Assembly (NCBI RefSeq): GCF_000346485.2
Contig: NZ_KQ976354.1
Span: forward strand, 9,568,341-9,632,340
Direction: 5' to 3'
Length of the DNA: 64,000 nt
DNA from: Scytonema hofmannii PCC 7110
GTDB taxonomy: Bacteria; Cyanobacteriota; Cyanobacteriia; Cyanobacteriales; Nostocaceae
Of the stretch, positions 32,952 through 37,562 are shown piece by piece. Under the pieces are notes generated by a model, which ran no database searches, was not told where the DNA came from, and saw only the letters and a list, made by a program, of their open reading frames with translations. A program made the position numbers and the translations under genes. Position 1 is the stretch's first letter. Every line of letters starts with the position of its first letter.

Positions 32952-33018
32952 ATTGTTAGTGGTTGGTGGTTAGTGGTTAGTAGTTAGCGGTTAACAACTA
33001 ACAACTAACCACTAACAA

Positions 33019-35544
33019 CTATCTATCAACAATAATCGCCCATAAACTTGCAGCTAGTCCAATCGCTGCTAAATGTTGCCAAAATAGCGATCGCATGGGT
33101 TGACGGGCAATTTTTTGTGTGAGTATTATAGTTAAAATTACTGAAAAAATCAAAGTACTGCCCTGTAGAAAAGCAATCACTGCTGGATGTGCAACTAATA
33201 TAGGTAGCTGTTCCCCATTGAGACCAAAAGTTGCAAAAGTGACGGGTAAAATACGTCCTCCTTCTGCTAAACCCAAGCGCAGGTAATGGGCTAAGTTACC
33301 ACCAAGCACGAGTGGTAGATAACCGTATGCTAGTTCGATAAATGGTCTTGGCTTGAGTTGAGAACCAACACGAGACAAACCATATGCTGCAAAGGGAATA
33401 ACAATGGGAATCACTAAAGCAAACAGTGATAAACCTAAGTGGGGTAGAAACTGTGTGAGGTCGAAATGTAACCCCAACCAAGATTTCAACTCCGGTAAAC
33501 GGTGGAGATATATACCTCCTAATAGTAAAAATAACAATGCGACTTCATAAGAACGGGGTATATGAGTTGTCCACAGTTCCATTCCGGGAGGACGTAAATT
33601 CAATTCAACGGAACGATGGGGACAAGCCTTCAGACAAGTCATGCACAATACGCAATCTCTGTTATCTTCTAACTGTGCTGGGTGAGAGTACAAGGGACAC
33701 CCCCCACTTTCCATACCTTCGCCTTTTTGTTGTCCGCCTTTATAGCACTGATATGTCGTACACGTTGCGGAACAAATTCCTTGTTGTGCTCGCAATTCTG
33801 TCATGGAAAGTTTGGCAAACAAACCATTCATTCCACCAATAGGGCAAAGATATCGACACCAAAAACGCCTTTCAAAAAGAATTGAGAAAATCACTGCGCC
33901 TGCAGTGATTAATAACAGCAAACAACCAGAAAGATAAGCCGTATTTTCCAATTTCCAAAGTTCTTCCCATAAAAAAATTAAAGTAAATAATCCGAAGATA
34001 AACCATCCTCCCCATTTTTCTGCTTGCTCTCTGGGCCAGCGTTTTAGTTGTCGGGGAAACAGCCATAAGGAAAGTTTCTGGGTGACTTCTCCATAAATCA
34101 TGAAGGGACAAACAGCGCACCAAATACGACCTAAAAAGGGAAATGCTAGCAGGAAAAATGGCCACCACCAAGCCCAGAATAAATTTAGGGCAAAATTGCG
34201 ATCGCGTGTTTGCGGACCAACAAAAAGCACGGCAACGGTAAAAGCAAAGGCAATCAAAGTAAAACCATAATTAATGCGATCGGGCCACCAAGGACTGCGG
34301 AGAAATTTTCGCAAATTGGGATAGGCATTTAAAAGATTGACTCGAAATTCTTTTTTCTTTGTTTGAGCCGACCAGAAAATTTCTTCTGTTAGTGCTTTTG
34401 CCTCTCCTGCTTGCACGATCGCCCGTTCCACAAGGTTTTGCAGTTCCTTAAGATTTCCGGGAAAATCATAGGATTGCAAGCGTCGTAAGGCTTCTGGTGT
34501 CACTTTTGGCTTTGAAATTCCTCTTGCACTGGTGTAAAGACTGATGTAATATTCTACCTGCGCTTTGATATCAGTTTTCCGTACACGTAGCGGTGGAACT
34601 TTAATAACTTGACCTACAGCACGCTCAATAGTTGGCTGAATTTTTTCGGCAACAATCAAAATACGAGCACGGGTAGCACGAGGTTCAGCAGGTGGTTCTC
34701 CCGAACGAGTGACGGGGCTATACTGGGATGTTTGTAATAAATTAGCTAATACTGGTAATAACTCGGTCGGAGTTTCTTGGATGTTGTTGAGAACTAAGGT
34801 ACCTTCTCCGAGCCATTCCAACAATCCTGGTTTGCCTCCATAACGACCAAATAAATCAGCACCACTCGTTTGCAGAATTCCACAGTTAACTTTAATAATA
34901 GGTTCTCGCCGATATGAGGAACCAAAATGAATGAGGGCGGCTATATTGTCCTTTTCTAAACCCGGTTCACCAAAAATCAAGACCGATTTGCGATCGCCCG
35001 CCGCTTGTCTAATTTCTTCCCGCAACCGGACTGCATAACGACTTGTCCCCACAATTCCACGCTGTGCTTTAGTGACTAAATAAGGTCGTAAGGCAACAGA
35101 ACGTTCTTGTTCGTAGTTAAGGGCAGATGTGAGATGAGCCACTTCTTGAGCCATTTGGCGAGAAACAGCCTGAGCAATTTCTGGATATTGAGTCACTATT
35201 TCCCGAAATTTAGCAGCAGGTAGAATCCACAAGTGGCATTCTGTGATTGTTATAATTGTGCGCTGAGTCAATTCATCTAACAGCAGTTCTTGTAGGTTAA
35301 TCACTGCTCCAGGGAGAAAACCAACAGCTAATGATGGGTTCGTTTTATTAGTACTATCGCTTTCCAACTGACCTTGTTGCAAAATATACAGGGCTTCTGG
35401 AGGGGACTCTTCAGTCATCAAACGATAATTTGCTGGAAAAACTTTTTCTTCTATAACTTCGGATAATGCATTCAAGGACTCAGGAGAAAGAATTCCCAAA
35501 GCCGTGCGTTCTTGTAGCCATATTAATATTTCTGTAGATGCCAT
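33019..35544 (-). CDS. cNMP-binding/AAA+ (sigma-54-activator-like)/membrane polyferredoxin fusion protein
   Basis: An 841-residue fusion. Residues 1-140 form a Crp-type cyclic-nucleotide-binding fold. Residues 165-385 are a sigma-54-activator-like AAA+ domain with Walker A GEPGLEKD (192-199) but a Walker B changed to VLNNIQ (251-256) and no GAFTGA loop, so ATP hydrolysis is doubtful and sigma-54 contact should not occur. Residues 425-841 are a NapH/NosR-like membrane polyferredoxin with several TM helices, paired cysteines WCAVCP (476, 479) and CRYLC (563, 567), further Cys at 591, 595, 600 and 616, and a 4Fe-4S motif CVLCMTCLKACP (631-641). It is probably a membrane redox sensor or electron-transfer protein with a regulatory head. 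ATG at 35544. Confidence 0.88.
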   Translation of the reverse strand: MASTEILIWLQERTALGILSPESLNALSEVIEEKVFPANYRLMTEESPPEALYILQQGQLESDSTNKTNPSLAVGFLPGAVINLQELLLDELTQRTIITITECHLWILPAAKFREIVTQYPEIAQAVSRQMAQEVAHLTSALNYEQERSVALRPYLVTKAQRGIVGTSRYAVRLREEIRQAAGDRKSVLIFGEPGLEKDNIAALIHFGSSYRREPIIKVNCGILQTSGADLFGRYGGKPGLLEWLGEGTLVLNNIQETPTELLPVLANLLQTSQYSPVTRSGEPPAEPRATRARILIVAEKIQPTIERAVGQVIKVPPLRVRKTDIKAQVEYYISLYTSARGISKPKVTPEALRRLQSYDFPGNLKELQNLVERAIVQAGEAKALTEEIFWSAQTKKKEFRVNLLNAYPNLRKFLRSPWWPDRINYGFTLIAFAFTVAVLFVGPQTRDRNFALNLFWAWWWPFFLLAFPFLGRIWCAVCPFMIYGEVTQKLSLWLFPRQLKRWPREQAEKWGGWFIFGLFTLIFLWEELWKLENTAYLSGCLLLLITAGAVIFSILFERRFWCRYLCPIGGMNGLFAKLSMTELRAQQGICSATCTTYQCYKGGQQKGEGMESGGCPLYSHPAQLEDNRDCVLCMTCLKACPHRSVELNLRPPGMELWTTHIPRSYEVALLFLLLGGIYLHRLPELKSWLGLHFDLTQFLPHLGLSLFALVIPIVIPFAAYGLSRVGSQLKPRPFIELAYGYLPLVLGGNLAHYLRLGLAEGGRILPVTFATFGLNGEQLPILVAHPAVIAFLQGSTLIFSVILTIILTQKIARQPMRSLFWQHLAAIGLAASLWAIIVDR

Positions 35545-36173: not shown

Positions 36174-37562
36174 TTAACCTCTTGTGGTACGGGCATCTTG
36201 CCCGTTGCTGCCACCTATTTCTAATTGCCCGTTGCTGCTACCTATTTCTAATTGCCCGTTGCTGCTACCTATTTCTAATTGCCCGTTGCTGCCACCTATT
36301 TCTAATTTAGGTAAAACTGACTCAGTCGTTGCTTTTGACAAAACCTTTGAATGACTAAAAAATCTGAAATACGTTGATACAAAAAATTCCTTCACCGGAA
36401 ATAGTAGATATGTCAAAGGATTGATTGCCACAATAATATTGCGAGCATCGCGTTTGGCTGATGCTACAATTTGTCGTGCCACCCAATCACCGGACATAAC
36501 TCCAATGGGATTAAGGTTGCTTTTGAAAGGTCCTAAAATTAATTTACGTATTACACAAGGAGCATCCAAACGACGTAATGTGACTAAATCTCCCAAAGCA
36601 CGTTTGGAAAGTTCGTACAAAGGGCTAATCGCGGGGCTGACCTCTGCTTCAGAAGTATTTATCCACACTTCTTTGAGAGCTACGTGTTCGTGAGTCCGAA
36701 CGGTGGTTAAAAAGAGTTCCAGCAGTCGCCAACTAGAAAAGGTATTGATCTCGTAAGATTTAAAAATTGCCTCTGGTGTTCTTTCACCTTTAACGTTAAT
36801 ACCGTGGTTGAGGACTAAAATATCTATCTGTTTTAGATGTTCAAGCAGTTCTCCCTCTTTCCCGACTTCCCAAGAAATTGTCTTCACTGTCAGTGGTTTG
36901 TCATTCACTGTCAGAGTTACGGGTTCTGATTTTGAACTCAGGGCTACCACCTTCGCACCTGCTAAATGCAAATGTAAAAGCAGCGATCGCCCTAGCGTTC
37001 CCGATGCTCCGGTAACGGCAATTTTTTTACCCTTTAGTGCCAGTGCTGTACCCATGAGCTTATCTATAAGAGTAAAAGTACTGCAATAGTAAGCGCGATC
37101 GCTATCGAAGTGATGCCGCCAGTGATAGGGTCGATTTACGAACCAGTTTCCCGGAGGAGTGATAAAAGGACCGGGCAGGTGAGTGACATCGGTTGCTTCC
37201 CGCGCCCATTCGCTGCCAATGCCACGTGCTATACAGCTAGCTAAAAACGTCAAAGTGTAAAGCGTTCCTACTAGGGCTGCCAACTGGTACTGTGGCGTCC
37301 ACTGAGAACATCCCCACCAAACTACTAGCGAAAACAGCAACATCACAAGGCATTCAGGCAAATCGTGATGCCATTGTGCCTGACGGTAGATTTCAGCATT
37401 CACAACGTTCAAATCTCGATGAAAGACACGATGATGCCACACGTGTTGCCGATATAGTGGTTGCCAGTGATGGGCTAAGACGTGATACAAATCTCGTACT
37501 AGTTCTGCCCATAAGATAGAGCCTAGTCCCCAAGCCGCGATCGCTATCCAAAAGGACACCAT
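36174..37562 (-). CDS. Bifunctional sterol desaturase-like / short-chain dehydrogenase protein
   Basis: A 462-residue fusion. The N-terminal half (about 1-170) is a membrane di-iron hydroxylase of the sterol desaturase superfamily, with histidine clusters DLYHVLAHHWQPLYRQHVWH, HHRVFH and PYHWRHHFDSDRAYY. The C-terminal half is an SDR with the nucleotide motif KKIAVTGASGTLGRSL, NHGIN, and a YxxxK site (PLYELSKRALGD). It probably hydroxylates or desaturates and then oxidises or reduces a lipid or carotenoid-like substrate; the substrate is unknown. The last 45 residues come from four 27-bp repeats plus part of a dispersed palindrome and are probably not part of the original protein. Confidence 0.88.
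   Translation of the reverse strand: MVSFWIAIAAWGLGSILWAELVRDLYHVLAHHWQPLYRQHVWHHRVFHRDLNVVNAEIYRQAQWHHDLPECLVMLLFSLVVWWGCSQWTPQYQLAALVGTLYTLTFLASCIARGIGSEWAREATDVTHLPGPFITPPGNWFVNRPYHWRHHFDSDRAYYCSTFTLIDKLMGTALALKGKKIAVTGASGTLGRSLLLHLHLAGAKVVALSSKSEPVTLTVNDKPLTVKTISWEVGKEGELLEHLKQIDILVLNHGINVKGERTPEAIFKSYEINTFSSWRLLELFLTTVRTHEHVALKEVWINTSEAEVSPAISPLYELSKRALGDLVTLRRLDAPCVIRKLILGPFKSNLNPIGVMSGDWVARQIVASAKRDARNIIVAINPLTYLLFPVKEFFVSTYFRFFSHSKVLSKATTESVLPKLEIGGSNGQLEIGSSNGQLEIGSSNGQLEIGGSNGQDARTTRG
36200..36307. repeat. Four tandem 27-bp repeats inside a coding end
   Basis: Four units of 27 bp start at 36200, 36227, 36254 and 36281, differing only at one position (GCTGCC or GCTGCT). Since 27 is a multiple of three, they add nine-residue units (LEIGGSNGQ or LEIGSSNGQ) to the C-terminus of the desaturase/SDR protein without breaking the frame. 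Confidence 0.95.

Follow-up and report, generated by a model that had tools for sequence, protein, structure and literature searches.

The window analysed here is a stretch of 64,000 nucleotides from the cyanobacterium Scytonema hofmannii PCC 7110 (contig NZ_KQ976354.1). Our subject is a single unbroken open reading frame (ORF) at 33019-35544 on the reverse strand, which starts with ATG and encodes a protein of 841 amino acids (aa). An initial annotation of this DNA, made from the sequence alone, had described a cyclic-nucleotide-binding (CNB) domain, an AAA+ domain and a NapH-like membrane domain in one chain, and this description is borne out by Pfam, by the NCBIfam model TIGR02163 and by the predicted fold. 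Pfam matches above curated cut-offs were obtained for cNMP_binding, Sigma54_activat, AAA_lid_14 and two stretches of Fer4_5 (1.4e-8), and no helix-turn-helix (HTH) family was matched up to E 1 in a scan of the 841-aa chain. An AlphaFold model of the whole protein was usable for the CNB and AAA+ parts (mainly the first 395 residues) and not for the membrane part. When the usable parts were compared with known folds by VIA-align, the activator-type AAA+ module (159-393) gave Z 18.8 to 1ny5_B, with 227 residues aligned at rmsd 3.2, and the CNB part (1-141) gave Z 17.9 to a cNMP domain, with 130 residues at rmsd 2.2.

The fusion is a real, conserved and new combination of known parts, and we found neither a description of it nor a function for its family in the literature searched. 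(Papers are cited here by PMC number, each from excerpts of its text.) In PMC1858693, the excerpt merely lists cNMP and Fer4 among the extra domains of cyanobacterial transcription factors. The family is widespread: in a sample of 388 genomes of the window's class, 291 match at E<=1e-3 and 261 at E<=1e-100 (hand count). Of 386 genomes sampled from the phylum, those that match at E<=1e-40 number 104, every one of them in the window's own class; the 282 non-matching genomes were counted together rather than by class. A contig scan confirmed 139 relatives. The 80 best were kept, and these are 71-84% identical to the query over almost its full length; several of the 80 loci come from records titled complete or nearly complete genomes.

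Table 1. Features of the fusion gene and its flank, in window coordinates; residue numbers are those of the 841-aa protein.
Feature	Position	Strand	Basis
841-aa fusion (CNB fold, pseudo-AAA+, membrane polyferredoxin)	33019..35544	-	ORF list, Pfam, 80 near-full-length loci
cNMP_binding fold, residues 34-120, degenerate phosphate-binding residues	35185..35445	-	Pfam E 2.2e-10; fold Z 17.9; column counts
Sigma54_activat-type AAA+ core, residues 164-284	34693..35055	-	PF00158 E 1.5e-12; fold Z 18.8
Degenerate P-loop GEPGLEKD, residues 192-199	34948..34971	-	Column counts, 81 sequences
Site of the missing GAFTGA loop, about residues 236-239	34828..34839	-	Alignment to the genome's own NtrC-type regulator
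Walker B D-E replaced by N253-N254	34783..34788	-	NN in 81/81 sequences
AAA_lid_14, residues 320-388	34381..34587	-	Pfam E 1.4e-13
NapH-like membrane part, residues 470-580, CxxCP (C476, C479) and CxxxCP (C563, C567)	33805..34137	-	Fer4_5, TIGR02163, invariant Cys
Two [4Fe-4S]-type four-cysteine sets, residues 588-645 (C591, 595, 600, 616; C631, 634, 637, 641)	33610..33783	-	Invariant Cys; cluster type inferred
C-terminal transmembrane extension past the NapH match, residues 661-841	33022..33564	-	Hydropathy and helices of membrane-only model
Heptamer repeat array directly before the start codon	35551..35591	-	Tandem repeat analysis; upstream sequences

Residues were counted in two sets of sequences. 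One consists of 81 (the window protein and 80 orthologs), and the other of 72 more diverse members, counted after six duplicate and five fragment rows had been dropped, with the short L156 kept in the f16 group. A quick likelihood tree of 73 rows has a very long Deinococcus outgroup and weak support on 18 of its 70 inner branches. It splits off by one branch each the distant plasmid-type members (clade II) and a family labelled f16; the remainder, window included, is clade I. The 72 diverse members comprise 57 of clade I, seven of clade II and eight of f16.

The membrane part carries the most striking conservation. All 12 cluster cysteines are invariant in 72/72 members, and both the Fer4_5 membrane motifs and two ferredoxin-type cysteine sets are present. 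The NapH/MauN model TIGR02163 matches residues 470-648 (E 3.4e-12, 46.4 bits against a cut-off of 213.05), and the Fer4 matches in the cysteine sets are weak, below the Pfam cut-off. About five additional C-terminal helices follow the NapH match in a model of the membrane part alone. The model helices and the hydropathy profile would place CxxCP, CxxxCP and both four-cysteine sets on the cytosolic side of the membrane, together with the N-terminal module. We infer that the protein probably holds iron-sulfur (Fe-S) clusters and transfers electrons, and that the N-terminal module would regulate this transfer. A bis-histidine heme in the C-terminal helices was considered and rejected: H681 is the one near-universal histidine (55/57 in clade I, 7/7 in clade II and 7/8 in f16), and the others vary.

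Among known systems, the NapH, NosR and MauN polyferredoxins share with the fusion the Fer4_5 pairs with CxxCP-type motifs and the two downstream four-cysteine sets. The fusion differs from them in falling far below the NapH cut-off, in its extra C-terminal helices and in its cytosolic CNB/AAA+ module. An FMN_bind domain is a feature of NosR, and in contrast none was matched up to E 1 in the Pfam scan of the fusion. A 4Fe-4S binding protein of Deinococcus ficus (WP_027463891.1) resembles the membrane Fe-S part, with 32.8% identity to residues 403-815, but neither its chain nor the preceding gene has a CNB or AAA+ match.

The AAA+ module has kept its fold and lost its catalytic residues. The initial annotation had noted that Walker B reads VLNNIQ and that the GAFTGA loop is absent, and both points hold in the sequence, in the column counts and in the alignment. 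Compared with the intact NtrC-type regulator encoded in the same genome, the window protein is missing the GAFTGA loop and the FREDLFYRFN box, and shows PGLEKD in place of SGTGKE in the P-loop and NN in place of DE in Walker B. The FREDLxYR box supplies arginine fingers, and no counterpart to it was found in the window protein in that alignment. GAFTGA is absent from the compared stretch in all family members that span it. The Walker B Glu is found in 0/72 diverse members; the Asp is kept in 5/7 of clade II, in 7/8 of f16 and in none of the 57 of clade I, where the pair reads NN in 55, SN in one and NK in one. Across the 81 sequences, K198 and D199 are each invariant (81/81), and position 197 is E in 72, G in eight and D in one. 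The P-loop Lys is present in 72/72 diverse members, and the P-loop Gly is replaced by E, D, S or N in 42/57 members of clade I; clade II retains GxxxxGKT or a near form. Across clade I, clade II and f16 these residues look like a graded catalytic decay with the fold retained. The full sequence of one locus (L159) has two tandem AAA+ modules, and L160 and L161 equal it in length and offset. In these three (from genomes G025, G054 and G040), the first module keeps the Walker B Asp and a more standard P-loop.

The AAA+ part has neither GAFTGA nor the Walker B acids, no box-VI arginine fingers and no HTH, and cannot act as a sigma-54 activator; on this the initial annotation was right. Clade I retains the P-loop Lys and has lost both Walker B acids, so hydrolysis there is improbable; to judge by the residues that remain, the AAA+ part may still bind nucleotide. 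The nucleotide-dependent switch for electron flow suggested in the initial annotation is neither supported nor contradicted by these residues. The enhancer-binding proteins PspF, NtrC and NtrX share the AAA+ fold and the lid with the fusion, which differs in being joined to a membrane protein and in lacking GAFTGA, the Walker B acids, box VI and an HTH. Some relatives of these proteins have left sigma-54. VpsR, TyrR, DhaR, HupR and YplP are DNA-binding regulators; in the fusion, by contrast, Pfam finds no DNA-binding domain and the AAA+ part is attached to a membrane redox protein. They share with the fusion an activator-type AAA+ in which GAFTGA is changed or missing (PMC3162934).

What of the N-terminal fold? 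The description of it as a Crp-type sensor stands in part. The fusion shares the CNB fold (PF00027) with CRP and FNR but has no HTH, and of the cassette residues which we take, from the CRP motif, to be the key ones (Gly-Glu and Arg), the Gly and the Arg are not conserved. The Gly position is K, Q, R or E in 81/81 sequences and Gly in 0/81; the Glu is present in 78/81 and the Arg in 16/81, the window among the 16. Several members have no cNMP fold at all (f16, f37, G010, G065 and the clade II member of G245) and retain the AAA+ and membrane parts. A search at E<=1 for a separate cNMP gene beside such members covered 15 loci, several of them short, in 13 genomes and found none; as a control, one CNB-bearing locus did match in the same search. 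By these residue counts, the cNMP fold is a poor sensor candidate.

Selection on the parts was estimated from 92 non-independent pairs drawn from 28 genes at 85-97% identity. The median ratio of nonsynonymous to synonymous substitution (dN/dS) is lowest in the transmembrane/Fe-S part (0.044), followed by the lid (0.072), the AAA+ core (0.086), the C-terminal helices (0.111) and the cNMP fold (0.199). The transmembrane/Fe-S part is thus the best conserved, with 81% mean identity within clade I, and the AAA+ core is, by these ratios, under purifying selection.

The neighbourhood of clade II genes has a redox and sulfur character. Ten loci were assigned to this clade, seven genes being placed by the tree and the other three (L195, L196 and L197) by 38-44% identity and a length of about 900 aa only. 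The fusion gene is followed by cysK in 6/10 loci, with one intervening ORF in L194, and psbA lies within about 8 kb in 3/10. The two plasmid copies are accompanied, within about 8 kb, by petC, psbA and rhodanese-type genes, and one by DsrE as well; the regulator on the Aulosira plasmid is of the MerR type. Both L191 and L192 contain a DUF302 gene, along with a pyridine-nucleotide oxidoreductase weakly related to sulfide-quinone reductase (97 bits against a cut-off of 525 in L191, the one of the two on which Pfam and NCBIfam were run). Such neighbours point to a role for clade II connected with sulfur or low oxygen, which need not apply to clade I. Six f16 loci have no common set of adjacent genes. 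Three clade II loci (L193, L196 and L197) also have in common a gene (sequence cluster cl59) that by eye presumably resembles an aldehyde-deformylating oxygenase.

The reading that we favour, with modest confidence, is that the fusion works in the membrane as a redox protein and bears a regulatory or docking module which does not hydrolyse ATP. A polyferredoxin of the NapH/NosR type in the cytoplasmic membrane would pass electrons through its cysteine-bound centres. The N-terminal cytosolic module would consist of a non-hydrolysing AAA+ domain, joined in most of the members examined by a degenerate cyclic-nucleotide fold; it would regulate, dock or oligomerise, and so tune the redox unit or report on it, and would not activate sigma-54 transcription. 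We favour this because the 12 cysteines are invariant, the transmembrane/Fe-S part is the most conserved, the catalytic Glu, GAFTGA and the FREDLFYRFN box are lost and the AAA+ core is under selection; because the CNB fold is missing from several lineages that keep the AAA+ and membrane parts and the AAA+ module is in tandem in L159; and because all 104 matches of the phylum sample fall in the window's class and clade II lies in a redox/sulfur setting (cysK, psbA). If the module gates electron flow, it would represent a new way of controlling redox balance in photosynthesis or respiration, and a clear example of an activator ATPase put to non-enzymatic use away from transcription.

Several observations weigh against this reading. 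The invariant P-loop Lys and the GxxxxGKT of clade II leave room for nucleotide binding and may even allow weak hydrolysis in clade II. The model of the membrane part is poor, with pLDDT <50 in the Fe-S stretch also when that part is modelled alone, and no solved relative of it was found by sequence, or by fold at E<=0.001 with this poor model. In 103 clade I loci, many with short flanks, no conserved neighbour was found among the clusters present in at least 8 loci: the commonest occurs in 25/103, and each occurs in at most 2 of 23 distant loci, the window being one of the 23. Finally, a strong match is missing in 127/388 genomes of the class, and a few listed copies have an in-frame stop.

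A bolder reading is tentative. Perhaps an activator ATPase has turned into a permanent allosteric gate, in which the AAA+ domain would bind a nucleotide or messenger without hydrolysis and thereby set the flow between ferredoxin-type donors in the cytosol and the membrane. Clade II, whose P-loop is intact and whose neighbours include cysK, psbA, petC and DsrE, would then be a version for sulfide or low oxygen, and clade I the everyday photosynthetic version.

The flow of information could also run in reverse, which we regard as doubtful. The Fe-S membrane part would sense the photosynthetic or respiratory redox state, and the AAA+/CNB module would be the output, capturing or releasing a partner protein; an invariant redox part with a faster-evolving N-terminus fits such an arrangement. 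A further hint comes from a candidate relative. One clade II member, a protein of Aulosira laxa, is called 'nitrogen assimilation regulatory protein', and slr1529 of Synechocystis 6803 ('ntrX') has that same product name (PMC3516471, PMC4182526), the shared name alone making it a candidate relative. The slr1529 product is treated as a transcriptional regulator, and its mutant belongs to the six whose metabolism had changed most at 72 h (PMC5318462). If slr1529 is an ortholog, a knockout with altered metabolites already exists for the family; the slr1529 transcript is lower under high copper, with a ratio of 0.29 (PMC4182526). Set against a reversed flow are the lack of a Pfam DNA-binding domain, the failure to find a conserved partner gene and the dispensability of the CNB fold in several lineages. 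If the module does gate electron flow, the product name of the clade II member would mislead users of cyanobacterial genomes.

Another idea, which we consider unlikely, is that the AAA+ pocket senses a second messenger or a nucleotide, in the manner of VpsR or FleQ, and gates the redox part. Among solved structures, VpsR (7v2b) gives the best sequence match, at E 3.1e-19, with a fold Z of 16.7. VpsR lacks GAFTGA (PMC3162934), binds cyclic di-GMP and acts independently of RpoN (PMC5552954), and the P-loop Lys of the fusion is kept throughout. However, PspF and NtrX follow close behind and other activators score higher by fold, so the match to VpsR may reflect general kinship. Very unlikely, in our judgement, is a functionless vestige: the loss of catalytic residues and the replaced P-loop Gly of clade I would fit decay, but the low median dN/dS of core and lid speaks against it, as does the retention of AAA+ in full-length aligned members, f16 included, and its duplication in L159.

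That the fusion is a working sigma-54 activator has a negligible probability, even though its contig also encodes sigma-54 and a canonical activator. The initial annotation had stated that cyanobacteria lack sigma-54, and on this point it was mistaken. The S. hofmannii PCC 7110 genome encodes a sigma-54 of 459 aa with core-binding and DNA-binding domains (PF04552 E 1.1e-29, PF04963 E 3.8e-35; the AID is slightly below cut-off), and its gene lies directly after those of a kinase and an intact GAFTGA regulator. The mistaken premise agrees with older literature: PMC3162934 reports no sigma-54 in 29 cyanobacteria, and two exceptions are given in PMC12316311, Gloeocapsa PCC 7428 and Leptolyngbya O-77; S. 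hofmannii PCC 7110 is a further exception. In the class sample, any sigma-54 match occurs in 6/388 genomes and a match above cut-off in 3/388, one of these only 38 positions long, against the 261/388 with a strong fusion match. In the window's family, 24/217 genomes match the host sigma-54, several as fragments. Relatives of the fusion with an intact loop were not found beside sigma-54: all 24 genomes with sigma-54 or a remnant carry the dead form, with NN and without GAFTGA (the fusion is in two contig pieces in G515 and has one in-frame TAG in G407). Together with the residues missing from the AAA+ part and the lack of an HTH, this speaks against activation. An assembly or annotation artefact that joined separate genes is just as remote, since the 80 loci that span nearly the whole query come from other assemblies, and nothing was found in its favour; chance is rejected on the same grounds.

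The sigma-54 genes of these Nostocaceae form a self-contained module, in which kinase, GAFTGA regulator and rpoN are consecutive (L090 7635-12820; G000:C1:3093634-3098819) and a divergent gene encodes 319 aa with no Pfam match. Its layout, we presume, resembles that of zraP-zraSR. In 17/18 loci the divergent gene is preceded by a -24/-12-like site, the exception being L278, where that gene was not found, and in 7/18 a second such site faces the kinase gene; the loose pattern occurs five other times in the 18 loci. A strict pattern is found nine times in the genome against zero for the reversed control, and the site before the divergent gene is the only intergenic one, the other eight lying inside predicted ORFs. 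A single canonical activator domain is encoded in 20 of the 24 genomes that have rpoN or a remnant of it, and none in the other four; by coordinates the sole activator adjoins rpoN in 18 of the 20. The rpoN gene is fragmentary or split in L091 (G334), G498, G509 and G515, and the canonical activator is also missing from G334, G498 and G515, which is consistent with repeated decay of the module in this family. We found no description of the module in the literature searched, beyond the two rpoN genes named in the excerpt of PMC12316311.

Upstream of the fusion gene, many Nostocales relatives (L010-L089) have a promoter-like stretch, GGGATAATTCC and then TATACAGCAG, about 20-60 bases before the start codon, and GGGATAAT occurs in 37/69 upstream regions. 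An NtcA site was found in 4/69 of these regions against a mean of 4.98 in single-base shuffles, and CRP, Fur and LexA patterns in 0/69. In the window the promoter-like stretch is absent and heptamer repeats stand in its place; similar arrays lie at both ends of the gene, the second at 32955-33021. The next gene but one upstream (36174-37562, reverse strand) combines a weak fatty-acid-hydroxylase match, below cut-off, with a short-chain-dehydrogenase domain, and ends in a 27-base repeat of about four copies at 36198-36307.

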